Below, piece after piece: positions 6,173-64,000 of a stretch of DNA of 64,000 bases. The DNA is from Heliocidaris erythrogramma (Eukaryota > Echinodermata > Echinoidea > Camarodonta > Echinometridae). Location of the stretch: assembly GCA_025617745.1 (NCBI GenBank), contig CM046870.1, positions 4,779,285 through 4,843,284 of the forward strand. Reading direction: 5' to 3'. Position 1 is the stretch's first letter, and every line of letters starts with the position of its first letter. The notes under the pieces are model-generated. The model did not search any database and was not told the origin of the DNA. It worked only from the letters and a program-made list of their open reading frames with translations. The translations under genes and the position numbers were made by a program.

Positions 6173-7147
6173 ATGAGTCAGACGGGCAGGAAACCCCTCA
6201 ACAGGAAGGTCAAGAAAGACAACTTTGGACCAGAGAAGGTACACAACTATCCCCCAGGGTGCTCGCCGGAAAACCGGCATGTTTCTCTCCAGAATCCGTA
6301 GCTACCAAATATTTAGTGCATCTGCTATGCATAATAGCATAATAAGAGCAACTTTTGTTCAAGAAGTATGCAGAAAATTAGTAAACAGGTCTATTCCACC
6401 AGATTCGGCAGCCCAATTCACCCAAAAATACACGGCGACGATTACAATCAGCATGACAATGAGCATGACGTAACAACTCCTGCTGGCATCGCATGGTACT
6501 TTAAAGCTGCAACAGCAAACTTTGAAAAGATGATACAAAAGGCCGTATCTTCTTTAGTCGACAACATAAAGCAGGTCGAATCTCAGCTGGGGGCAGCTAT
6601 TGAACATGAAAGCAAGAGAGTTACGGAGATAAATGCCAAGTATTCGCAACTGGAGAAACGAATGAAGGAGATGGAGAAGGAGGTCAACGCACTGAGGTCA
6701 GAAGTTTCCAAGCAAAAACAAGAGATCAACAAGAACGAACGCTTCTCGCGACGGAACAACATCCGCGCAATCGGGATTCCGGAATCTGCTACCGGCGAGG
6801 ATTGTGCCGCTCTGGTAGAGAAGATAGCCCAGGAGAAGTTCGGCATGACCCTCAAGGTCGAGAGAGCCCATCGCGATGGGAAACCAGCAAATGATCGCTC
6901 ACGGCATATTCTCTTCAAAACGCTATCGTATCGCCAGAAAATGGACATAATGAAGGCCCAGCGCGAGAAACTAGCTAACGAACGCTTCTACATGACAGAC
7001 GACCTGACAGCCGATGACCTCAAAGAGAAGCGGAAGTGGTCCGCTACCGTACAGGAGTGGTACAACACCGGCGTCAAGCTTCGGTTCTATGCGGGAAGAT
7101 GGAGAACCAGAGGAGGAGCACCGTACATCTTCAACTCCTCAGCTTAG
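6173..7147 (+). pseudogene. LINE ORF1 protein (coiled coil plus RRM-like)
   Basis: The likely start is the ATG at 6173 (MSQTGRKPLNRKV), but the frame changes around 6270-6370; the open part runs 6368-7147. A heptad-rich segment (about 6530-6740: IKQVESQLGAAIEHE, then EKRMKEMEKEVNALRSEVSK) predicts a coiled-coil trimerisation region. It is followed by SRRNNIRAIGIPES, the hallmark of the L1-ORF1-like RRM, and by a C-terminal part with VERAHRDG and RFYMTDDLT. ORF1 proteins bind LINE RNA as a chaperone. Here the protein ends GAPYIFNSSA. The same architecture recurs at 30996-31808. Confidence 0.8.
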
Positions 7148-7488
7148 AACACTCTCCGGTAACTTCACACTCTGTTTCTTCCTCTATTTCTCTATTTCTT
7201 TGTTTCGCTATTTCTTGTTTCTTCCTCTATTTCTTTAGTTCTCTCTTGCCACTTTAAGCATAGATTATATTACTTTGTAATTACATTTGTAATTGGCGAG
7301 AGACTTGCTATTTTCCAACGTACACTTATGCCACATTTTCTTCGAGTCTTTTTCAATATATTCTGTACCACGCACTGTATACATACTCCTTTGCCTGTAC
7401 CCCAACTGTTTTTCGTATTCTTGCCAGTTACGCTCATTTGCTTCTGCCAAGGCATGGGTAACTATATGTACTTATTTGAATCTACACC

Positions 7489-10400
7489 ATGTCTGACCTA
7501 AATTGTAATGTTCAACCATATGTGAAATGTCAATACTATCTGCCTGATGAGTTCAACTGTACTTTTTCAAACTGTTCTGAAAAAACCGGTTTATTGCATT
7601 GTAATGCCCATAGCCTTAATAAGAATTTTGATAACATATCTGACTTATTGGTAAACCTCTTTTTCATTTTCAATAATTGGCGTCACAGAAACATGGTTAA
7701 ATAATAGATCTCCAAATGTATATGATATTAATAATTACCATTATATCCGTAATGATAGACAGAACTGTCTTGGTGGTGGTGTTGCCTTTTATATATCCCA
7801 ATCGTTATCGTATAAATTCAGAGACGAATTTTCTCTTGTTAATAGCTCCTCTGAAATATTATGTATTGAGATTAATATAAAGAATGGGAAAAACTTAATT
7901 GTATGTGTTATTTATCGTCCACCTAACAGCAATGTTGATACCTTTTTAGAAGATTTTGATAATTTATTGAATAGTCTGAGCCCAGGAGGCAAATTAATAT
8001 GCTTAATGGGAGATTTTAATATAGACCTTAAAAAAGATAATAATACTGTCAATCCATTTAAAAGTATCATATATTCACATGCTTGTTTTCCTGTTATAGA
8101 CAAACCCACAAGAATTGTAAATCAATCTTCCACTATCATAGATAATATAATTTTTAATGATGATACTTACAGAATTAATTCCGGTCTTTTATATTCTGAC
8201 ATTTCAGATCATATTCCTGTTTTTTAATGTTTAATATCCTTTCCCCTTTTAGAGAGAAAGAAACAAAATATACACGGAAGTTATCCCCAGAAAATATATA
8301 TAGGTTAAACGAACACTTACAGAGTGAAGAATGGGAAGATGTTTTAATGTGCAATGACACTGAAAGAGCATATCATTTATTTTGGTCAAATTTTGAGTCA
8401 TATTTTAATACTAATATTCCTAAAGTGAAAGTTGGGGGGAAACTCAATAAACCTATCAAACCGTGGATTACAAGAGGAATTCTGAAATCTATTAATAAAA
8501 GAAATACCCTATATAAAATAAGCCTTTCTGAACCAAACCCTATAAATGTGCGTAATTACAAAATGTATCGAAATAAGTTAACAAGTGTAATAAGATTATC
8601 AAAACGGATGTACTTTTCTAATAAAATAGATAATGCTCAAGGTAATATTTCAACCACATGGAAAATAATTAACGAAATCCTTTATAAGAGTAAATCGCAA
8701 ATTAATTCCCAAGTATTTAATAAAGATGGTAATTCTATCAAAAATCCCCCTGAAATAGCAAACATGTTTAACGAATATTTTGTTAATGTAGGTCCTAACC
8801 AAGCTGCTAAAGTTGATGAGAGTAATTGTAACTTTGTAGAATTTTTATCACAATCAATAGATACATCCATATTCTTCATCCCCACTGACTTTATTAAGAA
8901 TCGTCCGCACCCTTAAATGTAGTCACTCCTCTAGTCATGATGAAATTAGTACTCACATATTGAAACAGATTATAGATAATATTTTGTCACCTCTAGTCCA
9001 TATTTTTAATCTCTCACTCTCCTGCGCTGTCTTCCCGACCCCCTTTAAAATTGCAAAGGTTATACCAATTTATAAGAAAGGCGATCCTTCTTGTATATGT
9101 AATTATCGACCTGTTTCTATTTTGTCAAGTTTCTCAAAGATTCTTGAGAGGATTGTCTATAATAGGTTATATGGATTTTTGTCTGAAAATAATTTTTTTA
9201 ATCCTAATCAATTTGGTTTCCGTAAGAATCATTCAACTGATTTAGCCTTAATGCAGTTATTTGACAGAGTATCAGATGCTTTGGCAAATCATAAACATGT
9301 AATATAGGATTTGAAGGTTTGCATGGTGAAGTTGTAATTCAGAAAAACGGTTTGCGGTACAACCATGTGAGTTGGAATAACTCCACGTTCCGGTCAGAAT
9401 GCTCTGGCCATCGTCAGGAGAATAAGAAGAGCGAATGAATCAGCAGAATTTATATATGAAGCGGTAGAAATTCTACAGCTTCATAACTTGTTTGTAATGT
9501 TAGGCAATTCACTTTTAAAAAGGAGGCAAACAATAACATCACGGAATTAGTATAGAAAGAAATAGTAACAATAACATCAAAGTACCTGCATTGAAAGGAT
9601 AAATAAGATCAAGGTACCTGCATTGAAAGGATAAGTGACACCAAACTAATCCTGCGTTGAAAAAACATTGAAAACAAGTGAACAATAGGACTAAGAAAAC
9701 CAATTAACCGTCTGGATCAGCTGGAAACAAAAGGGGGATGAGGACCGTAGAATCTGTGGAGAGAAACGTGACATCCTGTTGAACAAATGTTTTCTGTTCA
9801 CACTCTGACTTACGCCGTTTGAAAAGTTATCTACATGGTTTAAAAGTAATATCTTGTCACTCAATTTAAAGAAAACCAACTTTATTTATTTTAGAGGTAA
9901 AAGAAAAGTTGACTTGCAAAATCATGATTTATATATTGATGGAAATCTTCTTGAAAACAAAATAATGACTAAATTTCTTGGTGTGTATATTAATGAACGT
10001 TTAAAATGGAATGATCATGTAAAACACATAATTTTACCTATCTCTCGTAATGTTGGTCTGTTAACTAAGCTAAAATATTTTTTACCTACTTCTGTACTGT
10101 TTACGCTGTATAATACGCTTATCTTGCCATACATATCATATTGTAATATTATCTGGGCAACTCATAAATGTTATACAAATCCCATATTAATTCTGCAGAA
10201 AAAAGCCATCCGGGTGTGTAGTGGGGCAAGTTTTTGCTCTCACACTGACCCTCTGTTTTTTCGTCTTAAGTCCCTCAAGGTCAATGATATTAACTTCCTG
10301 CAAAAAGCTCTATTCATGTTTAAGTATAACTCCAACCTTTTACCCCCAGTATTTGCAACATTATTTCAATCGAACACACAAATTCACGCATATCCCACCA

Positions 10401-10543
10401 GACAATCAAAAAATGTGCATTTATTTAACCCCAGGGCTGCTCTTGCACATAATTCTATTAGGCACTCAGGCCCTGATGTATGGAATTCTCTTCCTCCCGA
10501 AATAAAATACATGACTTTAATGTACTCTTTCAAAATCACCTAA
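7489..10543 (+). pseudogene. LINE ORF2: endonuclease and partial reverse transcriptase
   Basis: An APE-type endonuclease runs from about 7570 to 8226. Motifs include LHCNAHSLNKN, an out-of-frame GVTETW-type stretch near 7680, YRPPNSN, LMGDFNIDL and SDISDHIPVF. A linker (8227-8915) ends near NEYFVNVG. The RT fingers follow at 8960-9303 (KIAKVIPIYKKGDPS, NYRPVSILSSF, FGFRKNHSTD). The frame then stops in a foreign segment and resumes at about 9835 with thumb and C-terminal parts (LSLNLKKTNFIYF, FLGVYINERLKWNDHV, LPYISYCNIIWA, VWNSLPPEIK). There are at least four frame breaks. The catalytic aspartate motif is absent, so this copy cannot be active. Confidence 0.85.
9304..9835. mobile_element. Foreign segment replacing the LINE RT core
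   Basis: The LINE frame breaks at ANHKHV and resumes at about 9835; the roughly 530 bases between do not encode LINE protein. The reverse complement of 9350-9425 contains 'ctgacgatggccagagc' and 'attctgaccggaacg', followed by a frame reading WSYSNSH. This resembles the terminal region of Penelope-like elements, but that is recalled resemblance, not a tested match. A short tandem pair, 'acctgcattgaaaggataa', lies at 9583-9602 and 9616-9634. About 130 codons of LINE RT are lost, so this is a replacement rather than a clean insertion. Confidence 0.5.
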
Positions 10544-26144: not shown

Positions 26145-26860
26145 GGGGTATCCTTCCCCCCCCCCCCCCCCCCTCTTAATGCTCTAGTGTCACGTTGAGA
26201 ATTGGGACTCTAATTTAGTTTCGATGTGCACTTAAAGCACCTTTCAGAAGCAGAATTTTGAGGCCTGATAATTAGAAACATAAATTGCTTGTAATTTAAC
26301 ACATTTAAGTATACTTTGGGCCCTGTTTTCATAATGAGCACCTGTGGCACATATTTTGATAAATTCTGAAGCACGTAGTGCTTACCGTATCACAATTAGA
26401 ATCTTTTCACACATTCCAAAACTTTATCATCCGTTGATATATAAAATGGACCTTTATTTGACAAAATGGGCACTTAAAGTTTCTCTTCAGAATTTAGAGG
26501 CCTAGAAATTTTGAATATTGTTTTAATATATTCCAATAAACCTATATTTCCCATAAATATCGAGGAAAAAGTACCCTGACGGCCATTTTGAAACATGAGT
26601 AAAACAGGCCTCAGGAGCAGAATTTGAGATGGCTCAATATCCACTTTTGCTTATTAAATATTGACCTACATGAGTGCGAATTTTGGTGCTTTTATCATAA
26701 AATGCACAGTCTGGCTGAAATATGACGCTATGCCACCCCACTACAATGAGAAGAGAAACATGTTTTAAATGTTATATAGTTAGAATGTTGATTAGTATAT
26801 ACATTTCCAGCATACCGGTACTAACTAAATAAGCTTTCAGACAAAGAGTAACTTTATACA
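26145..26860. repeat. Non-coding repeat related to 37040-38100
   Basis: After a C run (26157-26173) the sequence shares ordered phrases with 37150-38060: 'gggccctgttttcataatg' and 'gggcctttttgtcataatg', then 'cacctg', then 'gaaatcc/ggcctag'. It ends at the target site of the LINE at 26861. Confidence 0.55.
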
Positions 26861-29560
26861 GAAAAAGAAGTAGAAGAAATAAATTTGGAAATCTTATTGA
26901 ATTATGATGACATTCCCAAATTGTCATCAAAAATGTCTTTATTGCTTGAAGGTCCATTAAGTATCGATGAAGTTTATGCTATGTTAAAACATATGAAAAA
27001 AAAATCCCCTGGGCAAGATGGCTTTACGGTAGAATTCTACCGTTTCTTTTGGGAAGATATAAAACATTTTATAGTAAAGTCTTTGAACCATGGTTATTTT
27101 ACAGGACAATTATCACAATTGCAAAAATTGGGGATTATAACTTTGATTCCGAAAGGGAACAAGTCTCGAGATTTGCTTAAAAATTGGCGCCCTATTTCCT
27201 TGCTAAACGTTATTTATAAAGTGGCATCCGGTTGTACAGCTAATAGACTAAAAGGTGTTTTGTCTTACTTGATACATGAAAATCAAAAGGGATTTATAAA
27301 GGGTCGTTTCATAAGGGAAAATATACATTTATTATATGACACATTACTTTACACTGAAATAAATGATATAGCAGGCATGCTACTGGTTATTGACTTTGAA
27401 AAGACATTCGACTCTGTGTCTCACAAATTCCTCTATACAGTTTTGGATTTCTTTAAATTTGGCCCATCTTCACAGAAATGGATTAAATTGTTTTATGGAA
27501 ACGCTTCCTCGTGTGTCTAAGTTAACGGACATTGTACAGATAGATTTTTAATAGGACGAGGGTGTCGCCAGGGAGATCCTTTGTCTCCTTACCTGTTTTT
27601 GTTAGTGAGTGAAATACTTGGTATCTTAATGCGTCACTCAAATTCTTTAGTTGGATTGCATATGAATGGGAAAACACTCAAACTGTTGCAATATGCAGAT
27701 GATACCCTTTTGAAACTTAATGGTACCAGGCAAAATTTATAGTGTGCTCTCGAAATACTTAATGACTTTAAACAGATGTCCAATCTTAAAATCAACATAA
27801 CAAAAACGCACGTTATATAGATCGGGAAGAACAGGTCTCTTAAAACAGAAATTTTACATGAATACAAATTGAACTGGATATCTGAAGGTTATTTTAGGTA
27901 CCTAGGTATAGACTTTTCAGTACATTTATTACAGATGGTTGAACATAATTATTGTGAAAAGATAAAAGAAATTAAAAATCAAACGAACCCATGGTTGAAA
28001 AGATTATTAACCCCCTTAGGACGAGTAACCATAATTAAATCGTTATTTATACCCAAATTAAACTAATTGTTTCTATCACTTCCAGAACCAAATTCACAAA
28101 TTATTAAAGAGGTAAATCAATGTTTTTACTCGTTTATATGGGGTAATAAACCTGATAAAATAAGCAGAAAACAAATGCGTCAGTTATATAAGGATGGTGG
28201 AACTAAAATGACTGATATTTCTATACATATGAAATCTCTTAAGATATTATAGTTTAGAAGATTTATTAGCGACTCATCTGATAGCAACTTTACTTATCAT
28301 ATGTTTCTCTCGTTTTTTTCCTCCATCATATTCTCTCCAATTATATAGGGGGTCCGAACATTACAAACAATTAGCTACTGTCACGATTAATCCATTTTGG
28401 AAAGAAGTGCTTTTCGCCTTTTCAGATTTGGTTGAACTCACTGTAGATACTATTGCATGTCAATCTCTCTGGAATAAATCTGGATAAAAGTGAATAATAA
28501 TTCAATATATTTTGAATCTTAGAGTATGAAAGCAATACGTTTCATCAATGATATTTTGAAAACAGATGGTACATTTCTATCGTATTTTGACCTTCAACAT
28601 AAATTCAATATAAAATAACTTTCCTTCAATACTACGGGCTGTGCAATGCTATTCGGTCTGGTTTTAAAAAGAGTGTTATATCAAAGTTGATGGAACCTAC
28701 ATGTATTATACCTGAAGCATTACTTCTTATATTGAAAATGAAAAAAGGGTGTTCACATATTTACCAGTCGTTTTTAAAGCATAACGTTAAAGAAATGTAT
28801 CAGCCTTGCAAAATGGAAACAAGATTTATAACTCGAAGATAAAGCATGGTATTCATATTGTTTGACTCCCTTTCAATCAACTTTTGATATAAATATGAGG
28901 TGGTTTCAGTTTAAGATTTTAAACAGAATGCTTTACATGAAAGATTCATTGTTAAAATTCCAATTGGTTACTGATAAGAAATGTACATTTTGTAACAGCA
29001 GTGTAGAAACTATTACTCATATTTTTTGTTACTGTCCACATTCAAATGTAATATGGTTAAAACTTGAGGAATGGTTGTTCCGTAAGACTGATATCAAGCT
29101 TAAACTCACAAACCAAACTAAATTGTTTGGCTTTAATGGATGTCATAACAAAGCTTTTATTTGTATTCTAATTATTGTAAGAAAAGAAATATATTCAGCT
29201 AAATGCAAAAACCACATACCACTGTTATGTTAGCTGTTAAATCTTATTATGATAAGGAAAGTTATATAGCAAAAACAAGTCTTAAAGAAAAGAATTTTAT
29301 GAAAAAATGGTTTCATTTTACCAAATGTTTCTGAATGTTTTCGTTTAAATTTTGTTTGTTTGATTGTGATAAAATTAAGATTACAAATTATATTTTCTGT
29401 GTCCTATCTTATATGTCACAGTGTGACCAACATTATTTTTGTTATGTTCTTATGTTTGACTATTTGACAATGTCATGGAACAGTGCATGTATCGATTTTT
29501 TGTGAAATGAATGTTTATACATAATAAAGGAGCCCTGTGGAAGGGTAAATATATTTTTAA
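26861..29560 (+). mobile_element. 5'-truncated L1/Tx1-like LINE with target-site duplication
   Basis: The target site AAAGAGTAACTTTA(TA)CA at 26843-26860 is repeated at 29561-29576, bracketing a 2.7-kb element. It holds the RT and C-terminal part of ORF2, then a 3' UTR ending 'gccctgtggaagggtaaata'. The RT motifs (SPGQDGFTVEFYR, NWRPISLLNVIYK, QKGFIKGRFIRENI, GCRQGDPLSPYLFL, QYADDTLL) are of the L1/Tx1 type and differ from the CR1-like LINEs nearby. The catalytic YADD is intact at about 27697, but the frame is broken in several places. The tail lacks a long poly(A). Confidence 0.92.
26885..29233 (+). pseudogene. LINE ORF2: reverse transcriptase and C-terminal zinc-knuckle region
   Basis: The open frame 26885-27520 covers RT fingers and palm start, with LLVIDFEKTFDSVSHKFL (motif A aspartate retained). 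After a stop, 27528-27840 carries CRQGDPLSPYLF and YADDT. The region 27869-28250 reads FRYLGIDFSVH and LGRVTIIKSLFIPKLN. The terminal frame 28862-29233 reads CTFCNSSVETITHIFCYC, the CCHC-like motif typical of L1-type C-termini. There are about six stops or frameshifts overall. Confidence 0.88.
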
Positions 29561-30995: not shown

Positions 30996-31808
30996 ATGTC
31001 TACCGAGGACAAATCACTCAGCACCGCTCAAATCATGGGCGCCAATCCTCACAGGAATTCTATTCAAGTGGGGGGACACACCTGGATGCAACAATGGGGT
31101 GTCCCCCCCCCCCCCCCCCCCCACTTGAATAGAATTCCTGTGAGGATTGGCGCCTGTGGCTCAAATCAACCAGATTGATTCTGTTGTCCAGAAGGCAGTC
31201 GCCGCGGCAATGGAGAGAGAGCGTCAGAAGATCAGCGATGACTTTGACCGGCGTGAAGCCCGCCTGCGTAAGATCATGGATGAAAAAATCTCATCTCTTC
31301 ATGATCTTGAAATTGCCATCGACTCCAAGCTAAATGATCTCCGTAGAATCGAATCAACAGTAGATTCTAACAAAGTCAAAGTGGATGAATTCTCCGCTCG
31401 AATAGATTTAGCCGAACAATATTCTCGACGAAACAATATTCGGCTACTGGGAGTTCCTGTGACCCCTAATGAAAATACAGATGCTATCGTGTGCGATGTC
31501 GCGAAACAGATTGGAGTTGACATCAGCATCGACGACATCGATCGTTCACACCGTGTCTCCGTGTCATACAGACCGTGTCATACAGACTCAAATTCAAAAT
31601 GATGAAAAATAGAAGAAACTTGAAAGGGAAAGGGATAGTGATCGTCGAAGATCTGACTAAGAAAAATCTTGATCTGCAAGCTCAAGCATCCAGACGACCA
31701 AACGTCACAGCGACATGGACTTGGGACGGTCGTGTCTTTGCCATGGTCAAGAGCGAACATGGACGCATTGCAAAAAAACTCATCAAAAGACTATCAGATT
31801 TGAAATAG
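30996..31808 (+). pseudogene. LINE ORF1 protein (coiled coil plus RRM-like), with internal hairpin
   Basis: The frame opens with MSTEDKSLSTAQIMGANP at 30996. It is disrupted by a long palindrome at 31038-31154 and continues as INQIDSVVQKAVAAAMERE, then a heptad-rich helix, then YSRRNNIRLLGVPV (RRM-like signature as in 6368-7147) and IDRSHRVS. A frame change near 31590 leads to the C-terminal domain GIVIVEDLTKKN and FAMVKSEHGRIAKKLI, ending at 31808. It resembles the L1-type ORF1 plan. Not active as it stands. Confidence 0.82.
31038..31154. repeat. Long near-perfect palindrome in LINE ORF1
   Basis: The left arm (31038-31082, from GGCGCCAATCCTCACAGG) is repeated inverted at 31098-31154, around a 15-base centre. 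Arms match over about 45 bases apart from extra C residues in the right arm. The palindrome duplicates ORF1 sequence in inverted orientation. Confidence 0.9.
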
Positions 31809-33967
31809 ACCATTATGACTGTATTCGTGCCAGACTGTCTATCTTAACAATCTAAATTGTCATAACTTTACCGGTCATTGGCCGCCTGCTGGTAAGATAT
31901 TTTCATTAGTTTTTTTATATGGTTCTTTGCTTTTGACTATTATTGTTAATATTTTTTATGCAATTTATTGAATTATTCGTTACAATTAAATTTTGTTTTT
32001 TTAGATTGTTAAACTTGATATTTAAAAATACTCCTGGTGGTTCCCTTTAGTTGTACTTCGTTGTACACTCTTTTTGTCGTTCTCCTTGTTGTTGCTTAAC
32101 TTCTTGTCTGTGTAGTCCATTGTTTAAATGTTGTAAATGTGCCTGACGTTAATTTATATAGACAAGGGATGCAAAACGCTAATTTTCTTCGTATATCTGA
32201 GCTTCTATCTCCACTTGATAATGATAATGAACAGAGTTTGTATGGTCCCCAACAAAATTGTTTCGTGCCAAATAAATTCAATATTTTTTTTGCGTGAACA
32301 ACAATCCAACAATGATATCCATAAAGCATTTTCTTGTTTACACCTTAACTGTAGAAATATAAAGAAAAACATTGATAATTTTGTTACTTTTTTACATGAT
32401 GTTGAATTAAATTTCTGTGCAATAGGTATAACAGAGACATGGCTAAAATGTAACGATCCTTGCTATAACATTGATGGTTATAATTTCATTAGTAACTCCC
32501 GTCAAGATCGCAGGGGTGGAGGTGTAGGAGTTTATATCAGAAATGATTTTAACTTCGTACATATGAGTGATTTAGATATATTTTCGGAATCTATGGTATA
32601 TTTTTGTTGAAATTAAGTCCTTTTCTAAAAATATAATATTTAGTGTAATTTATAGACCGCCAAATTCAATGTTGCCTGAATTTTTAGAATCTCTTACTAC
32701 AGTACTAAATAAAATTTCTACAGAAAATAAATTATTGTATTTGGTGATTTTAACCTTAATTTATTAAATGCTGATTCTTGCCCACAGGTTAGTGATTTTT
32801 TAGATGTATTTATAACCAGATCAATTTATCCCGTCATTCATTTCCCAACTCGAGTATCTAAACACTCCACTATCTTAATTGACAATATCTTTACAAATAA
32901 TATAAGGAATATCTATTCTGGTATTTTCTTAATTGATATAAGTGACCATTTCCCAGTGTATTGTATTCATAGTCATTATACTAGCAAACCAAATACAATG
33001 TTTAATGAGGCGACAAATAAATGATGAAAATATACGTAGCTTTATTACAAAGTTAAAAAATATTGAATGGTATAGTAAGTGTAATGATCCAAATCTTATG
33101 TATGATACCTTTTTAAACCAATTTTCGAATCTATATAATGAATGTTTCCCTAAAACTAATGTTAAATGTAAACGTCGTAAAGATAAACCATGGTTCAACG
33201 ATGATTTGAGAAAAATGTGCAATAAAAAGTATCTGTTATACAAGAAATTTATCAAAAACCCTACTATAAATAGAGAGAATACATACAAGTCCTATCGTAA
33301 TGTAAATAACGTAAATAATAAAATAAAATGTATCAAAAATGAATACTATAGAAATTTATTTTTGAATGTCAAATGCAATCTTTAAAAAACTTGGAATATT
33401 ATTAATAAAACAATGGGGAGAATGAATAACCAAACTACAATTGAGAGCGTAAATGTTAACAATGATAAAGTAGTTGGTGATTATGACATCGCTCAAGCAT
33501 TCAATGATTATTTTGTTAATATTGGTTTATCTCTTTCAAATAGTTTACAATCAAATACTAGAAATAATTTTGTGCAATATTTAAAGGGTCATTAAAAAAT
33601 TAAAAAATAATTGCCCATTTTTCGTAGGAAGGTGTCATCAGGAGCCAAAAAATATCCATCACACAATTTTTTATGCATTCAGTCATATTTTATAATCATT
33701 TGAAAAGTACATTTTTGCTGATTTACACAGTCATAAGCCCCGCCCCTAAAAAAACCCATCGAAGCGACATCGTGATCACGTGATCTGTGACGCATGAAAA
33801 GTAAGGGGAAATATATCACTAACCTATACCGTACGCGCTCGGAGGCCCCCGGCAGGGCCAGCCCGGTGCCGAGCATGATATTCACCGCATCGAAAATTTG
33901 CATTGCGTATTTTCGTGTGTTTAATTCCTCACAATAACTTTGATTTTGGGACACAGTTTCATCAATA

Positions 33968-34334
33968 ATGCCTAATCGGTGTATAGTTGCGGGCTGTAGC
34001 AAAACCCCTAAAGATGGTGTAAGCCTACATCATTTTGCTAAAGATGAAAATCTACGGAAATTATGGGTCGCCAATGTAAAGCTCACGCGGGCAGAGTGGC
34101 AAGGGCCGGCCAAGTGAGTGGAGTACAATCTGCAGCGATCACTTTGCCGAAGATAATTTTGAGGATCCTCGCCTGTATTCCGAATTTGGCATGAAGAAGA
34201 AGGATAAGCTAGCTAAAAGATTCAGCTATTCCAACGATCAGACTTGGAATCAAGTCTTCCAATCTGTTTTTCAACGACAGCAGCTGCAGCAGCTTCACCC
34301 GTATAGACCGAAAATTCTGTCTCTCGTTCGTTAG
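33968..34334 (+). pseudogene. THAP zinc-finger domain, frameshifted
   Basis: The ATG at 33968 begins MPNRCIVAGCSKTPKDG, the classic THAP start with the first two zinc-binding cysteines (C-x4-C). It continues with LHHFAKDENLRKLWVANV and EWQGPAK to a stop at 34115. In the next frame from 34122 follow STICSDHFAEDNFEDPRLY (the C-x2-H pair) and a basic stretch MKKKDKLAKRF. The shift comes from a 4-bp tandem duplication (agtg-agtg) at 34114-34121; without it the W-S-T-I-C-S-D-H-F order would be continuous. A GTGAGT donor-like site falls at the same point but no usable acceptor follows. The final codons run into the hairpin element at 34304. THAP domains bind DNA in the termini of their transposons; host co-option is not indicated here. 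Confidence 0.82.
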
Positions 34335-34375
34335 CTAAGACGACCTAACGAACAAGAGAAAGCATTTTCGGTCTA
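34304..34375. mobile_element. 72-bp hairpin mini-element with 11-bp flanking repeats
   Basis: The ends are perfect inverted repeats (TAGACCGAAAA and TTTTCGGTCTA), with further pairing inside (CGTTCGTTAG / CTAACGAACA). The direct repeat CTTCACCCGTA flanks it exactly at 34293-34303 and 34376-34386. This fits a tiny inverted-repeat transposon inserted in the THAP-bearing element. Confidence 0.8.
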
Positions 34376-36758
34376 CTTCACCCGTAAATCCAGGGAGCTC
34401 CCTGGAGTTACTTCACCCACGGCCCTTCACCGTATTCTGCGAGGGGTTCAAACATAATGGTCGAATTTCCCCTTGCCACTCGAGCTTCATTGCCTTCGGG
34501 GTCTGATAAGTCATCGTATCTGCATGGCTCAGAAAGGTCCTCCAACTCGGAATCGCGGGCACTTTTCCTCTCTCTATATAAGTTACTCGAATTCAGCCAA
34601 AATCTAAGTCAGTACTAACGTGGGCCTACTATGTAAAGCGAAGTAAAAAAAAAAAATGCCGTAAGTGAAATAAACAAAACAAAAGCGTTCACCAGTCGCT
34701 ATGTATGAGGGGAACATAGTCACTGCCGTACTAAAGATGTGTAGGACATTATACATACAGACGCATAAAACGGCTGTGCACGCGTTTATGACCAATGCAA
34801 AACTTTCGTTTGGCAAGCTCAGATGGATGAGAACATTGTTCAAAAGAAAAGCTAAAAAACAAAACAAGAGCTGTATATTTGGGCAAAAGCGTTTTCTGAT
34901 CTTGTAGAAAATATATTGCTAATGATTATTCACTCCTAAGATTATATTGATTAATTTCCCTTTTTCATAAATCGTCCGTTAAACAGAAGGGTCAAATACC
35001 GCATTCTGTGTACAATATTATATGCTGCAGCCTGCAGATCTTGTGCCTCTTACTTTTCATACGTCACTTGGGGGTTAGCCAATCAGATTACGAGTTTTAA
35101 GGAACGGTCCCAAAACCTCTACTTTTCCCCCTTTTTCGCCAAAACGAGACATAATTTGGACAATCGATTGGCAGATTCGTGATTAAAAGGCAAAACTGCA
35201 TGGAAAGAGCACCCATTTTCTCTCTAATTTAGTCAACCTTTAAATAGAAACAATAACAGTGTTTTTTTTTAATCTCATCACTCCGGGAGAGATTATTAAC
35301 ATTGTATGTAATTTTGATTGTAATTCTGCTACAGGGTATGATGAAATTAATATGTCAGTTGTTAAGAAAGCAATACACATTATTTGTTATCCCTTATGCA
35401 ATATCTTTAATTCTGTTTTAACTACTGGTATTTTTCCTGATATATTAAAAATAGCACGTGTTGTTCCAATTTTCAAGAATGGATCAAAGTCAGAATTATC
35501 TAATTACAGACCTATATCAGTCTTGCCAGCATTTTATAAAATTCTCGAAAATGTATTTATAATCGCCTTTCTGATTTAGTAGATATATATATAATATAAT
35601 GACACCTTCCCAATATGGATTTCGCTCCGGGCACTCCACATCCCATGCTTTAGTTGATTTGGTATTTGAAGTTTCTCATGCTTTTAATTCTCGATTCATT
35701 TTATTTGGTTTGTTTTTAGATTTAAGTAAAGCTTTCGATACGCTCGACCACTCTGATTTATTAGTTAAGAAAATACAGTGTATGATTTTTACTAATAAGA
35801 AAATTGAATATAATATGAATATCAAGATGAATAATGAAGATATAAAAGTGGTACGTTCTCTAAAATTCCTTGGCGTTATTATTGATTCCAAATTAAATTG
35901 GCATGAGCATATAAACGAGGTTTGCAACAAAGTTTCAAAATGTTTAGGTGTATTATATAAATTACGATTTTTTTTTTCCTCGAAACATTTTATTAATGAT
36001 ATACAATGCCATTGTAACCCCACGCCTTAATTATTGTAATGTCGCTTGGGCTTCTTCTACAAGTTACTGTATGTTAAGACTATTTCGTTTGCAGAAAAAA
36101 GCAGTTCGTATTGTCTGTCATGCCAATTTTCTTGCCCATACATCACCTATATTTATCGAGTTAAAATTGTTAAATATATATGATCTGAATGCTTTTAATA
36201 TTGCTATCTTCATGTATTTGATATTTAAAAATGTTGCACCTATATGTCTCTTACAAAAATTCACTTTGACTTCTGAAATAACTTCTTATGACATGCGAAA
36301 GCAGTTTAATTTCTATTTACCACTTTTTAAAACAAATGTTGGCGTCAATTCAGTTTTCTATAAAGGACCAAAAATTTGGAATGCTCTGTCTGAAGAAATG
36401 AAATCAAGTCCTTCATTAAATGTTTTTAAAAAGAATTACAAGAAACTACTCTTACAAAATTATATGTAAATTATCTATTTTATCAGGCCCATTTTATGTT
36501 ATGTCCGTCGAGGGTTTGTAACGTTTTATTAACTGTTCCATTTATCTTATTGTTATAAGCTCCTTCGTTTTATTTAAAATATGCTTTTTTACTCATTTTA
36601 TTCTTGTATGTAACATGGTGTTTAATTACTTATATATTGGTCGCAGCATTTCATAAGACATTGTTCTTCTAAGCTGTCTCCGTATTCTTTTTCATTGTAT
36701 TTTTTACCTTGTAATTGTTTCTAATTTTGAATGAAATAAAAGCAAAATTGAATTAAAA

Positions 36759-43407: not shown

Positions 43408-46072
43408 TGAATGAATGAATGAATGAATGAATGAATGAATGAATGAATGAATGAATTTATTACCATTTCTAAAACAATATATGAAACATATTTACAAGGC
43501 ATTTACAAATGTGAATGGTAATGGGAGACCACGAAATAGCTGAAATGGCTAATGAATATGTGGTTCCCTGACAAAAATTATGTAAATGTGATATAATTAA
43601 AGACTACGTAAAACACTAATTAAATTTTACGAATACAAATACTCTACCAATTAAGGTCTTACAATAATCAGTAAAAACTGTAAATACTGGCAAGAAGAGT
43701 ATGTATATATACACACACGCAATCAACATCAATAAAAGCAAAAACAAAAGTTTGTTCATTGAGTATAAACAAAATACCTGTATCTATAAAACTATAGGTT
43801 ATATATTCACAAATACCAAGGGGGGAAACAAAACAAAACAAAACACACACAAAAAAAACAACAAACAAACAAACAAACAAAAAAGTGATACATCACTGTA
43901 GATATTCCATTAGCATCATTTCTCCTAACTTCCTACAAAATGTTTTGACAGACGGTTTCTGTTTAATATCTAAGGGCATGAATTCCATATTCTAGAACCG
44001 TAGAATGAAATTGACCTCTTTCCATGCTCAGTCTTTACTTTTGGTAAAATGAGACTTTTGCTATCTTTTTGTCTCGTATGATACCAGTGATCGAAAAACT
44101 GGCAATATTCATATACAGAATGGGGAAGTTGTTGATGTATTAACTTATACATGAAGGTAGCTGTTTGAAACCTGTGAAACTTGTAAATATCTAAGATTTT
44201 CAAAGCGAGAAATAAAGGCGCAGACGGTGGCATAAATCCACTAAAGGTAATAGCCCTAACAATCATTTTCTGTATAATGAATATTCTGTCAACAAATGAA
44301 CTATACGCACATCCCCATACTTCAAGGCCATAGGAAATGTGTGGCTGAACAATAGAATGATACAACAATAATAGTATGTAACGTGGAACAAAGTGCCTCA
44401 ACCGATACATAATTCCAACTTTTTTGCGGAGCACTGTGCATTTTCTATTTATATGATTCTTCCAGGTTAAATAATTATCAATGTGAATCCAAACAAAGGA
44501 TGCAACTTCAACCTCATTCAGAATGTGGCCCTTCATTTTGATAAAACCTTCCGTATTTACCCGTTTTCTTTTGGATTTAATCACCATATAATTTGTTTTA
44601 TTGATATTTATTGTTATTTTATTTGCATCACACCAATCATTTATATAAGTCAAATTTTTGGTAATGTCTGATAAATCAATGTTTACTTGATTGGAGGGAA
44701 ATGCATGGAAAATATTTGAATCATCTGCAAATAGTCTGAAATTAAAATAGGTAGATGATTTAGGTAAGTCATTAATGTATATTAAAAACAGAGTTGGTCC
44801 CAAGACAGATCCTTGAGGAACCCCACATACAATTGGTGAAAGCGAGGAAGTTGCACCATTGTGGTGTACATATTGAGACCAACAATGCAAGTAATCTCTA
44901 AACCATTTCAATGCGAGTCCACGAACACCATAATTCTGTAGTTTAGATAATAATATAGTGTGATTGATACTATCAAAAGCTTTCGCAAAATCAATGAAAA
45001 TACCAACAGTTGTTCTTCCTTCATCTTGATAATGTATCAGTTGATTTATCAAGTTTATTACTGATAGTTTGGTGCTATACTTTTCCCTGAAACCATATTG
45101 ATGCTTATACAATATGCTGTTTCTTTCCAGGAAACTCACCAAGCGATTATTAACCAATTTTTCAAAAATCTTACTTAAAACTGGTAAAACCGATATGGGT
45201 CTATAATTACCTGGTTGATTTTTGGCACCCTTTTTAAAGACTGGACTCACTTTCGCAATTTTCATTGAATTTGGAAATTGGCCTGATTGTAATGATAAGT
45301 TGAATACAAATGAAAGTGGCTGAGATATATAGTCAGCACCATCACAAATAAGGTTCATCGGGACATTATCATGCCCACACGCCTTTTTTTCTATCAGAGT
45401 CTTTCAACACATTTTCTATTTCATTCTTAGTAATTGGAAGCCAGAAAAACGATTCTTGAACAGGATCACATAGATAATGATCAAATTTCATATTGGCGTT
45501 CTGGATTTGTTGAGCTAAATTATGACCAACATTAACAAAGAAATAATTAAAAATTTCAGCAACTTCTTTAGGGTTATTTGATTCACGCTGTACACCATTT
45601 ATATCATCGTTTAATTTCTCCACTGATGCTTTGCTACCATCTTGTCTACCTAATAATTCATTGATTGTATTCCAAGTTTTACAAGCATTACCTTTGTGCT
45701 TCTGGAATAAGTTCCCATAATGTATTTGTTTTGCCTTACGCAAAGTTGTCGTTAACATATTTCTATATTTCTTATACTTTAAATGCACATCAGGATCAAA
45801 GTTTGATTTGAGAACCTTAGAGTACAGTCGATGCTTTGTCTTAATCGATTTGTGAATTGCCTTTGTTATCCACGGTTTAGAATGTATTTTAGAATAAGAT
45901 TTTGTATCAAGTGGTGCATGCTTATTACAAGTTTTCATGAACAGAGCGAGAAACTTTGAGTATGCTTTATCAACTTCTTTACATTCATATACCTCATTCC
46001 AAGGTAGAGATGCAAGATCTTCATGGAACGAAGACTTCTTTGATAGTGGAATTGTTCCGACGGTCTCATAAA
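43408..46072 (-). mobile_element. CR1-like LINE 3 with nearly whole RT
   Basis: The 3' end on the left is a (GAAT)n tail at 43408-43456 (ATTC on the coding strand). ORF2 covers 43970 to about 46070: a linker with SKPWITKAIHKSI and NYFFVNVGHN, then an uninterrupted 462-codon RT and C-terminus. The 5' side, including endonuclease and ORF1, is missing, cut at about 46072 where another LINE starts in the opposite direction. Confidence 0.9.
43970..45938 (-). pseudogene. LINE ORF2 reverse transcriptase, long open part
   Basis: The frame 45358-43970 holds all RT blocks: [68 protein letters not shown] (motif A), [20 protein letters not shown] (B), [13 protein letters not shown] (C, FADD intact), and the thumb ending SRIWNSCP. 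The upstream frame 45938-45369 (linker) is separated by one frameshift near 45365, in HDNVP/KKGVWA sequence. It is the least damaged LINE RT of the window, suggesting the youngest CR1-like insertion, yet it lacks the endonuclease. Confidence 0.9.
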
Positions 46073-48311
46073 ACCGTTGTATAAAGGCAAAGGTTCCTCA
46101 GATTCAGCAGATAATGATAGAGGAATAACACTGTTAAGTTGTGTGGGAAAGCTTTTCACTGCCGAGTTGTTAATTTCATCGAGTCGAATGATATGATAGG
46201 AGAAGAGCAAGTTGGTTTCAGAAGTGGTTATTCGACTATGGATCACCTGTTTTCACTGCATGTCATTCTTGATTGGTATCTGAAAAAAAGATAAAGAGTT
46301 TATACTGCCAAAAGGCATTTGATTTAATCGATAGATCATTCTTATGGATGAAACTTATTAATCATGGGATTTGTGGTAAATTGCTCAGAGTTATAAGACA
46401 AATATATGATAAGTCAAAGTTTTGCATCTCATAGGAAAACAAAACATCGGAGTATTTCCGAAGTAATATTGGAGTGAATCAAGGAGAAAATTTATCTCCG
46501 ATATTATTTGAATTATTTCTAAATGACTTTGAAACATTTATCCATGAAAGATACTCTGGGTTAAGATCTCTCTCAGCTTCTGTTCTTGATGAGGTCTGCT
46601 CGGATCGAGAAAGCGAGATATTTTTTGAATTATTTACCTTACTTTATGCAGATGATACAATTGTGCTGGCTGAATCTGCTGAAGAGCTATACAATTAGCA
46701 CTTTAAAGCATTAAAATGCTTTAAATGACTATTGCCAACTTTGGCATCTAGCTATAAATACATCAAAAACAAAAGTAGTTATTTTTTCTCCAGGAAAGGT
46801 CAGGAAAATACCTATTTTCCGTTTTGGAAGCGACGAAATTGAGGTTTGTGATGATTATGTTTATTTAGGAACAACCTTTAATTATAGTAACAAATTCAAA
46901 AAAGCCATTAATAAAAAGGTTCCCCAAGCAAGAAGGGCATTATTTTCAATGAAAAGTATTTTTTTTTCATTGCGCTTGCCATGTTGATATGCAACTTGAA
47001 TTGTTTGACCATTTGATTTTACCAATATTATTGTATGGAAGTGAAATCTGGGCTTTTGATAATATATCTCCTATTGAAACATTCTTTTTTGGATGTTGTA
47101 AGGAATAGCTTAGTGTGCATAGAAGGACCCCAAATTGTATGATTTATGGCGAAATAGGAAGACAGAAGCTTGAAAAGAATTGTTTCAGAACGCATGCTGA
47201 TGTTTTGGTACCGGCTTGTGAGCAGTAAGACTTCCAAAATATCTAGTATCTTGTATCATTATCAATATTCTTTATATTTGAGACAAGAAATAGGCAAAAT
47301 AAAGAATCTGCTAGATAAGTTGGGTTTAAGAAATATCTGGAATAATCAAGCGTCAGATTTGAGTATGAATAGGTTAAAAAAATTGGTTAAATCAAGATTA
47401 CATGATACTGGTAATCAAGAATGGCACAGTGATGTCGAAGAAAAGCATTGTTTAAATTATCGAATCTTTAAAAATTCAAACCATTTTGGAAAATACTTTG
47501 AAGTATTGAATGATTGAGAAATTAAATTTCGTTGTGCGAATCGCAAAATGCACATTGTTAAGGGCAGACATAATAACATTCCGAGAAATAACAATTCCGA
47601 GAAAGGAAAGACTACGGTCATTTTTGTGATAAAAGTCAAATTGGCGATGAATTTCTCTTTTTCAATGTAATGTTTATGATGAGCAAAAAAAAAAATATTT
47701 GAAACGTTATTACTGGAATAATTTAACAGTGAAAAGAAGACTGTCCTTTCAAATTTGGCCAAATTTTGTGCTTACATTATAACTTTTTTAAAGCATTGAA
47801 TATGTTATTATCATGGTGTATTTTTTTCGCTGAAAACATTGGCCTTCCTTGCTTTCAGGCTGTGCCATATTTATATTTAATTTAATAAAAATAATAATAA
47901 TACATACATACATAATTTATATTGCGCTTAATACAATGTTTCTAAGTGCCTCGCCATATCCCAGCTGCCCTATTAGGCACTGAAAGCATTCAAGGAATAA
48001 ATTCCTACCAGGTACCCATGCACCTGGGTGGAGAGTGGCAAAGGACTCGAACCGCGAACCATGAGATCCACAGTCCGGTGACGTATTCACTAGACCACGA
48101 CAACTCTACAAGTTTTTATCTACATATTTATCTATATATGTTTTATTTCTTTTTTATTTATTTATTATTTTGGGTTGTTTTGGGGGGTTTTTTTCATTCT
48201 TATCTTTCCTTTGAATTATTTTGGTACTCACTGAACAAGAAATTGAACAAAATTGTACTCTGATACCTTAAAAGTTGAGTTTTCAATAAACTTTCAAACT
48301 TTCAAACTTTC
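46073..48311 (+). mobile_element. LINE of a second clade, 5'-truncated, with nested SINE
   Basis: It begins inside the RT with PLYKGKGSSDSADNDRGITL, then LLSCVGKLFT, a frame change, NFIESNDMIGEEQVGFRSGY, NQGENLSPILFELFLNDFE and LLYADDTIVLAESAEEL (YADD intact at about 46653). The C-terminal part, 47170-47517, reads RMLMFWYRLVSSKTSKI and LGLRNIWNNQ. There are many frame breaks. The 3' UTR is split by a SINE at 47892-48110, and the element ends in a tail of CTTTCAAA repeats at 48286-48311. The sequence type differs from the CR1-like elements and from the L1/Tx1-like one. Confidence 0.85.
47892..48110 (-). mobile_element. tRNA-derived SINE, full head
   Basis: Read from 48110 leftward, the head has a box A-like GTGGTCTAGTGAATA and a box B GGTTCGAGTCC. 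A conserved body follows ('gccactctccacccaggtg', 'atgggtacctggtagg', 'gcctaatagggcagctg'), ending in a 'aagcgcaatataaat' tail and a TATG-type microsatellite. Box spacing and a degenerate acceptor show it is a SINE rather than a functional tRNA gene. Related bodies lie at 50620 and 20637. Confidence 0.85.
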
Positions 48312-51400: not shown

Positions 51401-52476
51401 CATTTATACTCTGTTCTTACTCCCATTAGGTACTAGCTATCTCATTCCATTTAAGAAATAAGATTTAGCTTTCAAGTTTCAGTTATATTTCTTTAGCTCT
51501 GTCAGTGGTAAACTTGATTCATCAGTTGAATCAGAGATGGGGTTATGGGGGGTTGTCATATTCCCCATTCCCACGGAGTAATCATATTGATCATCCAATC
51601 CATCTCATCATGTTCATCTTGCTACCTCCTAAGAGGTAACAGGAAAGGATTATCCCTAACTGATGAATATGTCATGAGGGTAGAAAAAAGAATATGTAAT
51701 AAACCATACTGTAGAATTTCCTGGTTAGTGATTTGATTAATGAGATAATTATTGATTTTTCTCTTTAATAGTTATTTTAATGTATCCAACAGGTTGATTT
51801 TCATTTTTGTAATAATTTTTGTGACCTCATTTCAAATTTTCCTGGTGAAATTTGCAAATAGTTGTTCCAAAATCAGAGAAATTGCATCTGTTTGTAGACT
51901 CTGCACAGGCAAAATGAATATGCATTATAAGCATTGTGCATATTCATGAGGTGTAGTTTTTACATTCAGTCTGTATTTAGTTAAGTTGTCACTGAAGACT
52001 TTTTTTTTTTTCATGGAAGGAATTGCTGGTTCTATGTCCTGCTGATGTGAAATAATGGTATCCTATCATCCTGTGCTTATTTCCAGCTCTTATGTCTTGC
52101 TTGAGAAAGATTTGGACCACCGTAATAATGGTTTCATTCTTTTCAGTCAAAATGTCTGTGAGAAAAGACTAATACATGTCTTGTGTATTGACATGTGCTC
52201 AGTGAAACACGGCATAAAGCACTGTGTTATAGCACTTGTACACTTCAGTATAGCACAACAATGGGTGTATACAACATGTGTGTGTACATACACATGTGTG
52301 TGTGGTGTACAAGGGGCCAGGCCAGATGGTGAAACTGAAGCATGTCTCATAGTTTATAGTCTGCAGGCTAGGATCATGTGTACAATATACATGTACATTC
52401 ATTATTAGCTCAGAGCCTTTCAGTGTTGTAGGCTGGGAACTGCTAGTTCCCAATAGCTCTCATAATTCCATATGAT

Positions 52477-59370: not shown

Positions 59371-59448
59371 GGTGGTAAGGAGTACATTCTTTCTCAGGAC
59401 AACGAGTTGAGATTTGAAGTAGAAAACAATGAAGTCGTGCAAATGGAG
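59371..59448 (+). CDS. CLP1: CLP1 exon: N-terminal domain start
   Basis: The 78-nt phase-0 exon encodes GGKEYILSQDNELRFEVENN and EVVQME, with acceptor TTTATACAG and donor GAG|GTAACT. It matches the vertebrate CLP1 region FELERETELRFEVE...VQLE. In CLP1 the N-terminal beta-sandwich packs against the ATP site of the central kinase domain. CLP1 phosphorylates RNA 5'-hydroxyl ends and works with PCF11 in cleavage factor II and with the TSEN complex in tRNA splicing. The match continues without gaps into the next exon. Confidence 0.93.
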
Positions 59449-60334
59449 GTAACTATTTCTTCTTTAGATTATAATTTTCTAAAAACAAAACCATTGCCCC
59501 ATGTGCAAAATGGAAAAGCCAATATTTCTCTGGTTACTTGTATAACTGATCACACTTCAATAGCATCACAGTCACACCCACAAACTGATTCCAAACAGAC
59601 CTACTTTTATAATCCACAAAATTGTGGCCATTTGGGGTGTTGCTCTATTGTTGGTCTGTTGTTGCATGCTGTTGGTAGTGTAAGAATCAACCAACTGTTA
59701 CAAATATGAATTATCATCATCATCATCATCATCATGATTATCAGTAATTACTATTTATGTATTTTACCATGTTGATATACATGTATTGTTTTTATGAAAA
59801 TGTGGAAATAAACTTTGAATTTTAAACGTTGAACTTTGAACGTTATCATCTGTATCATTATTATCACCATCATCATCAGTATCATCATTATCATTATCAT
59901 CATCATCATCATCATCAGTATTATCATCATTATCATCATCATCATCATCATCATCGTCATCATCATTATCATCATCATCATCATATCATCATCTTTATCA
60001 TCAGCAACAGCAGCATTATTATCATCATCATCATCTTTATCGTCGTCAGCTACAGCAGCATCTTCATTATCATCATTATCATCAGCGGCAGCAGCATTAT
60101 TATCATCATCAACATTATTATCATCATCAACATTATTATCAGCAGCAACAGCAGCATCATCATCATCAGTATCATGAGCATTATCATTATCACCATCATT
60201 ATTATCCTCATCTTTCCCATTCATTATCAATGTTATTATTATTGTATTATCATTATTTTGTAATATTATTTTTGTTGTTGTTGTCATTGTTATCATTCTC
60301 ATTGTGTTATTCTCTCTTGTTTTATTTCTTTCAG
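59449..60334 (+). other. CLP1 intron with large (ATC)n-type microsatellite
   Basis: GT-AG intron. A compound trinucleotide repeat of the TCA/TTA type fills 59711-60250, with CAG-type insertions (TCAGCAGCAACAGCAGC) dispersed through it. All the long frames in it are repeat artefacts on both strands. Confidence 0.9.
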
Positions 60335-60448
60335 ATCAAAGAGGGCTTTGCCGAAGTGTTTGGCTCGGAGCTGATGAAGAACAGAATTTACAAGTTTGCG
60401 TCAGGTTCTAAAGTTGCAGTGTTCACATGGCAGGGATGCAAGATTATA
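60335..60448 (+). CDS. CLP1: CLP1 exon: N-terminal domain end
   Basis: The 114-nt exon encodes IKEGFAEVFGSELMKNRIYK, then FASGSKVAVFTWQGC and KII. Vertebrate CLP1 reads LLTGMAEIFGTELTRNKKF, then TFDAGAKVAVFTWHGC at this place, residue for residue. The acceptor is TTTCTTTCAG. The exon ends before ATATCCTTT, a U12-type AT donor; continuing to a later GT would add about 14 residues not found in the family and break phase with the next exon. Both boundaries are phase 0. Confidence 0.93.
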
Positions 60449-61535
60449 ATATCCTTTTCAACAATGACAAGTCCAGTCAATTTTCTTGCAGTAATTTTTT
60501 GACATTTACAAAATAGTCCAATTACATGTATATAACCATGTACATGTATACAGAGTGAATATAAACGTAACACAAGAACATGGTAATTCCTGGAATAAGG
60601 CATGTACATATATATCTACATGTATATGTGTCTTTATGAAATCAATTTGCATAAGTAATAATAATTGATGAAAATAGCCATTTTCACAGTAAAGAATGGT
60701 TTGATTTTTTTTTTTTTGTGCACAGTATGCAAATTTTTTGTTATTGATCTGAGATCTCAAGGGCGGTCATCTTGTTATTTGTGGGTTAAAGGGAATAGTC
60801 GCACATACATTGTATGTGAAGTGTACATGACATCAGATCCTCCCTCCAAAATTGTAAGAGACTTTGAAATGGTTAACAATTAAATAGCAACAAGGAAAAA
60901 AATAATTCTATGCCATTTATTGCAAGGACCTTAAAGGTTACCAGTCACCCCAAAAGTTAATTTGCTCTGTATGTTAGAGGTTCCATGTATTGCTTCTATA
61001 AAGAAATATTCCAAGTTTAACTACACTCTCTACAAGTGTAAAAGCGACTGGTGAGTAGACTACTCGACGCACCCATAGTCATACGCGCTATCCAAGATAA
61101 GGGCTCGCGCGGAACCCAACTCGGGAGTTCAGTTCCGCGCGCGCACCTTCTTCTTATCTTTTATTTCCTTCTTATCTTTTATTTCCTTCTTACTCCTTAA
61201 ATGTTAGGTCTAAAGAATGCCAGATGAAGTTCTTTGAGGTTAATTTCATATTTTCTACATGTAGCTTTACACAATTTGTTTTTCTTCAGATGATTGGTAC
61301 ATTTTAACTTATCAAGCAGTGTATCAATACAAGTCATTTTAACTTTATTTAGATTACAAATTTGGTATTAAGACTTTATCTCCTGACAAAAGTAATATTT
61401 GGAGCTGATATTTTGAATAAATGTTATAGCAGCCTGATACCTGATTGTCCAGAATAAAAAACAGTGCTTATTTTAAGACGCAGTATAACCTGCTTTCGAG
61501 ACTTTGTATCTTTTTTCTTGACTGTTTGCCCGTAC
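60449..61535 (+). other. Candidate U12-type AT-AC intron of CLP1
   Basis: The 1087-base intron starts ATATCCTTTT (the strict minor-spliceosome 5' splice site is ATATCCTT) and ends AC at 61534-61535. The branch-like TTTCTTGACT at 61514-61523 (consensus TTCCTTRAC) places the branch adenosine 14 bases before the exon, inside the window typical of U12 introns. Joining at these points gives [15 protein letters not shown], which aligns with vertebrate GCSVQLSGRTEVAYV with no gap. No pair of GT-AG sites does this. Confidence 0.88.
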
Positions 61536-61661
61536 CTTCGAGGGAAGACAGAAGTAGCGTATGTTTCTAAGGAGACACCCATGATTACGTATCTCAACAC
61601 ACATGCAGCTCTAGAACAAATGAGACAACAGGCTGAACTGGAGGCTACTCGGGGACCAAAG
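61536..61661 (+). CDS. CLP1: CLP1 exon preceding the P-loop
   Basis: The 126-nt phase-0 exon encodes [20 protein letters not shown], then [15 protein letters not shown], ending EATRGPK, with a donor AAG|GTTGGA. It corresponds to vertebrate [20 protein letters not shown] and THTALEQMRRQAE, then the short acidic linker. The exon begins after AC rather than AG. Confidence 0.93.
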
Positions 61662-62973: not shown

Positions 62974-63087
62974 GTGATGGTTGTAGGACCGGGAGATGTA
63001 GGCAAGAGCACAGTTTGCAGATTACTACTTAACTATGCAGTCCGGGTCGGTAGGAGACCTACTTTCATTGAATTAGATGTCGGTCAG
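62974..63087 (+). CDS. CLP1: CLP1 exon: Walker A P-loop
   Basis: The 114-nt exon encodes [20 protein letters not shown], then [18 protein letters not shown], with donor [18 protein letters not shown] is the P-loop (vertebrate GPTDVGKST) that binds ATP phosphates; the lysine and serine needed for catalysis are present. ELDVGQ is the Walker B-like segment of the family. Phase 0 at both ends. Confidence 0.95.
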
Positions 63088-63887: not shown

Positions 63888-64000
63888 GGGTCTATATCCG
63901 TCCCAGGTACAGTAGGGGCATTGCTTGTAGAGAGACCGGCCGATGTGGAACAAGGCTTTGCTCTAACTGCTCCTCTAGTCTATCACTTCGGTGCTACCTC
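63888..64000 (+). CDS. CLP1: CLP1 exon, cut by window edge
   Basis: It encodes [20 protein letters not shown], then [17 protein letters not shown], and runs off the window within a codon. Vertebrate CLP1 has [20 protein letters not shown], then [17 protein letters not shown]. The rest of the kinase domain and the C-terminal domain must lie to the right. Confidence 0.95.

Follow-up and report, generated by a model that had tools for sequence, protein, structure and literature searches.

A very probable U12-type AT-AC intron in the CLP1 gene of Heliocidaris erythrogramma

The CLP1 gene of Heliocidaris erythrogramma is very probably interrupted by a minor (U12-type) spliceosomal intron of the AT-AC subtype, an assignment read from the DNA sequence of a 64,000-nucleotide stretch (the window, C18:4779285-4843284 of a 1.064 Gb assembly in 26 contigs), at the right end of which the gene lies on the plus strand. 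A preliminary description of the same DNA had proposed an AT-AC intron at this place, and the present analysis recovered it exact to the base, with a 9/9 donor, an 8/9 branch motif and a terminal AC (Table 1). The U12-type reading given in that description is likewise upheld by the exon boundaries, the homology of the encoded protein, the eight GT-AG introns elsewhere in the gene, the four minor snRNA families found in the genome and a positive control in PHB2.

Table 1. Features of the CLP1 locus in the window (a slash marks an exon-intron boundary; intron letters next to it in lower case)
Feature	Position	Strand	Basis
CLP1 coding exon E2, first one found	59371..59448	+	acag/GGTGG ... ATGGAG/gtaact; human CLP1 match
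CLP1 coding exon E3, 5' of minor intron	60335..60448	+	cag/ATCAAAG ... GATTATA/atatcc; human CLP1 match
Probable U12-type AT-AC intron, 1087 nt, phase 0	60449..61535	+	best of 102 in-frame pairs; donor 9/9, branch 8/9
U12 5' splice site ATATCCTTTT	60449..60458	+	predicted pairing with AAAAAGG, 5' end of own-genome U11
In-frame stop upon intron retention	60500..60502	+	sequence reading
Branch-point-like TTTCTTGAC, putative branch A 61521	61514..61522	+	predicted pairing with GAGUAAGGAAAA stretch of own-genome U12
AC 3' splice site	61534..61535	+	best-scoring boundary pair
CLP1 coding exon E4, 3' of minor intron	61536..61661	+	joined reading frame; human CLP1 match
CLP1 coding exon E5, P-loop GPGDVGKST	62974..63087	+	human CLP1 match; Pfam
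CLP1 coding exon E6	63888..64000	+	leaves window; end 86 bases past it (64086 counted on)

The CLP1 exons read through as one protein. When joined, they match human CLP1 (8hmy; E 1.2e-82) over query residues 5-181 with zero gaps, which bears out the gap-free joint claimed previously, with further matches to worm clpf-1 (E 2.1e-56) and a weak one to yeast Clp1. The Pfam domains CLP1_N and CLP1_P are both present (PF16573, 1.8e-34; PF16575, 1.5e-27). Much of the intron directly 5' of E3 is occupied by a long simple repeat of the ATC/ATT type (59830-60240), which gives rise to chance open frames in that segment.

The boundaries of the minor intron read ATA/ATATCCTTTT ... TTTCTTGACTGTTTGCCCGTAC/CTT. 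The donor agrees with RTATCCTTT at 9/9 positions and meets the extended U12 donor ATATCCTT (+1 to +8), while TTTCTTGAC agrees with TTCCTTRAY at 8/9 positions, with one mismatch; ATATCCTT and TCCTTAAC are given as the U12 donor and branch consensus in PMC2831892. After the putative branch adenosine there are 14 bases up to the last base of the intron, the distance that the preliminary description had reported. This spacing is just beyond the optimum of 11-13 nt (PMC3584512), and phase 0 is a minority phase, comprising on average about 22% of minor introns (PMC10639083); together with the branch mismatch, these are among the weaker points of the assignment. By our own count along human CLP1, the intron would fall between human codons 74 and 75.

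The choice of boundaries was assessed by enumerating donors at 60400-60502 against acceptors at 61440-61599 with GT-AG, GC-AG, AT-AC or AT-AG ends, which yielded 102 in-frame, stop-free pairs (35 AT-AC, 28 GT-AG, 27 AT-AG and 12 GC-AG). Among all 102, the pair 60449/61535 ranked top in the comparisons with both human CLP1 (276) and worm CLP1 (209). The runner-up against human (268/201, human/worm) is an AT-AC pair with its donor 3 nt upstream and a U12 match of 4/9, and the runner-up against worm (262/203) is the AT-AC pair 60436/61522, with a U12 match of 3/9. It is very unlikely that E3 and E4 are instead joined at ordinary GT-AG (U2-type) sites, giving a slightly altered protein and leaving the U12-like motifs as coincidence. 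The 28 GT-AG pairs, for example 60471-61542, do offer such joints, but the best of them score below the AT-AC pair against both proteins (256/189 for the top pair, which adds five residues, and 252/193 for the sole pair of equal length); moreover, their donors are weak, as in CAA/GTCCAGTCA, and some of their acceptors trim conserved residues. Up to 4 nt from the junction there is neither a GT at the end of E3 nor an AG at the start of E4. Following the enumeration, GT-AG joints for E3/E4 were rejected on their lower human and worm scores.

Coincidence of the paired U12 signals has, moreover, a rough chance of only 7e-7 to 2e-5. Dinucleotide shuffling of the window (60 replicates) gave, per 64 kb strand, about 1.5 donors of 9/9 and about 29.5 ACs preceded at 8-20 nt by an 8/9 branch motif, and the rough expectation of finding the paired signals at one of 61 sliding joints is 6.5e-7, or 2.0e-5 when an indel of ±15 nt is allowed. 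The real window holds two 9/9 donors and 20 ACs with an 8/9 branch motif on the plus strand, and one and 19, respectively, on the minus strand. Single U12 signals are not rare in the window, and the significance of those in CLP1 is their location at exon ends. The remaining 9/9 donors in the window are at 8234 (+), adjoined by retrotransposon-like reading frames, and at 38949 (-). Genome-wide, the 9 nt donor occurs 29,604 times on both strands versus 29,182 for its reversed control, a slight excess that carried no weight in the assignment.

It is more improbable still that the major spliceosome removes the AT-AC intron in the manner known from some sodium-channel genes. AT-AC ends alone are insufficient to assign the class (PMC2831892; PMC3584512); U2-type AT-AC introns share these terminal dinucleotides. 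U12-type introns are characterized by the lack of a distinct polypyrimidine tract, and the 3' end of the CLP1 intron is fairly pyrimidine-rich, with 15 pyrimidines among the 20 positions from -22 to -3 (18, 13 and 17 for the three introns of GT-AG type in the window). However, the U2-type AT-AC introns of sodium-channel genes carry G at +5 (PMC2831892), whereas the CLP1 intron has C at this position within a full U12 donor, which matches the U2 consensus at 2/9 positions and that of U12 at 9/9, and it also contains a near-consensus U12 branch motif. The eight other CLP1 introns resolved are all GT-AG; two of them match the U12 donor at 6/9 and 7/9 positions, and in all eight the branch motif in range reaches at most 7/9. 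The donor after E4, AAG/GTTGGAAAA, is a poor U2 site (5/9).

A damaged CLP1 copy, or one broken in assembly, in which the intron signals would be irrelevant, is equally improbable: the model does lack the first coding exon and an acceptor is tandemly duplicated downstream, but with the downstream DNA the gene comprises ten exons and 378 residues with zero stops (the first coding exon and the extreme C-terminal end excluded), and a search of the 1.06 Gb genome with the E3-E4 DNA for a spliced retrocopy, in which the joint would have been directly visible, returned none, both candidates being E3 and E4 themselves; diverged copies can escape such a search. The duplicated acceptor consists of a 46 bp unit repeated five times in tandem within CLP1 downstream of the window (L017:5672-5908; TRF score 406), each unit containing a complete 3' splice site together with the beginning of a CLP1 exon, and the last copy joining the exon, so that several possible acceptors stand in a row at that exon.

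The genome also contains matches to the RNAs that a minor spliceosome would use. Matches above the Rfam cut-offs numbered 11 for U12, five for U11, seven for U6atac and one for U4atac, and the 14 control genomes gave no minor snRNA match, a weak control as these genomes may all be prokaryotes. Five of the seven U6atac matches span the full model and two are partial; the weakest barely passes its cut-off, and the weak ones are perhaps pseudogenes. Among the copies inspected by sequence (2/11 U12, 2/5 U11, 3/7 U6atac and the single U4atac), those of U11 retain AAAAAGGG at the 5' end, those of U12 GUAAGGAAAA and those of U6atac AAGGAGAG; for U12 and U11, one copy each was also aligned to its Rfam model in a second scan. 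The U12 genes are clustered, with ten of the 11 matches in two groups on C6:35735849-36367688 in which copies are 1.2-2 kb apart, and four of the five U11 matches, on C15:19734588-19770075, are spaced by 1.3-3 kb, the fifth lying about 30 kb away on the opposite strand.

Pairing energies were also considered as a discriminator. With pieces of the human snRNAs, the predicted pairing of the donor with U11 (-5.8 kcal/mol) was matched or bettered at 190 of the 1327 positions of 60335-61661, and that of the branch motif with U12 at 36 of the same 1327. In the lowest-energy duplex predicted with the U12 of the genome itself, the bulged nucleotide is the G beside the branch A and not the A. The U11 pairing is unremarkable, and as a discriminator these energies are weak.

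A positive control was provided by PHB2, which is entered as AT-AC in a fly-human table of U12 introns with U12 in both class columns (PMC2831892), and which was located in the same genome by a protein search. The PHB2 exon ends in ...GCCGCCAAAATG/ATATCCTTTTCA, and the 12 nt donor ATATCCTTTTCA is identical to that of the CLP1 minor intron; the branch motif TTCCTTGAC matches at 9/9 positions, with 19 nt from its A to the end of the intron at ...GATGCAC/TTAGGAGAA, and the AT-AC join falls at the position expected from the human protein. In this single control gene, the genome has therefore apparently kept a minor intron of the AT-AC subtype whose donor is the one found in CLP1. The two introns share donor and AC end and differ in the branch, which is 9/9 at 19 nt in PHB2 and 8/9 at 14 nt in CLP1; for PHB2, conservation of the minor intron between fly and human has been reported (PMC2831892).

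Compared with the U12-type AT-AC class as a whole, the CLP1 intron agrees in its donor ATATCCTT, in a branch motif close to TCCTTRAC near the 3' end and in its AC terminus, and it is a single minor intron amid GT-AG introns, as is found in the class. There is no difference in kind: its branch distance (14 nt) and its phase (0) both occur in the class, if not as the commonest values. CLP1 is an ordinary instance of a well known intron class and represents no new phenomenon.

Elsewhere in the window, a full-length gene for the U8 small nucleolar RNA lies at 51530-51666 on the minus strand (Rfam RF00096; 82.9 bits, cut-off 41), about 7.7 kb upstream of E2, the first exon located for CLP1 (59371). 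Reading frames resembling non-LTR retrotransposons occur at 6338-10540 (+), 26852-29230 (+), 31144-36466 (+) and 43973-46097 (-), and, judged by eye, resemble coiled-coil, endonuclease and reverse-transcriptase parts. The motif TACATGTA is present 30 times in the window versus 2.2 expected, an abundance that would be usual in echinoderms.

From these signals we infer that the minor spliceosome would remove the CLP1 intron and that the adenosine named in Table 1 would be the branch nucleotide. In the proposed course of splicing, U11 would recognize the donor ATATCCTTTT and U12 the branch motif TTTCTTGAC, U6atac would then displace U11 at the donor, and the exons would be joined between two codons to encode GCKII-LRGKTEV, with a predicted spliced junction (60448/61536) of ATA/CTTCGAGG. 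If the intron were retained, translation would end after 17 intron codons, inside the N-terminal domain, so that production of CLP1 would be expected to hinge on the minor spliceosome.

A literature search found no paper on a minor intron in CLP1; supplementary tables and intron databases, which were outside its scope, may well list the intron. In PMC10639083, PMC2831892, PMC7367187, PMC6717393, PMC6865273 and PMC2846911, the main text does not mention CLP1; the name occurs once in PMC11817330, and the passages covered of two papers on the CLP1 disease mutation (one of them PMC8488643) contain no CLP1 gene structure. That a minor intron should sit in the gene for an RNA-processing enzyme such as CLP1 is of little surprise, since minor introns have been reported to be enriched in RNA-processing genes (PMC6865273).

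As to the age of the intron, loss of U12 introns is reported to be commoner than their conversion (PMC2831892), and in one worked example the ancestor of Chordata and Echinodermata had a minor-intron density about 25% above that of human (PMC10639083). On these grounds, it seems likelier that the CLP1 minor intron is old and was lost in other lineages than that it is new. A further proposal, that this is an ancient animal intron lost from some well surveyed lineages and that its retention acts as a brake on CLP1 output, is rather doubtful; if true, it would place mRNA 3'-end cleavage and the handling of tRNA introns downstream of the minor spliceosome in those animals that keep the intron. CLP1 has a role in mRNA 3'-end formation and has been linked to tRNA splicing (PMC8488643), and a well-delimited minor intron within it represents a possible link among three RNA-processing pathways, as well as a good character for tracing the loss of minor introns among animals.
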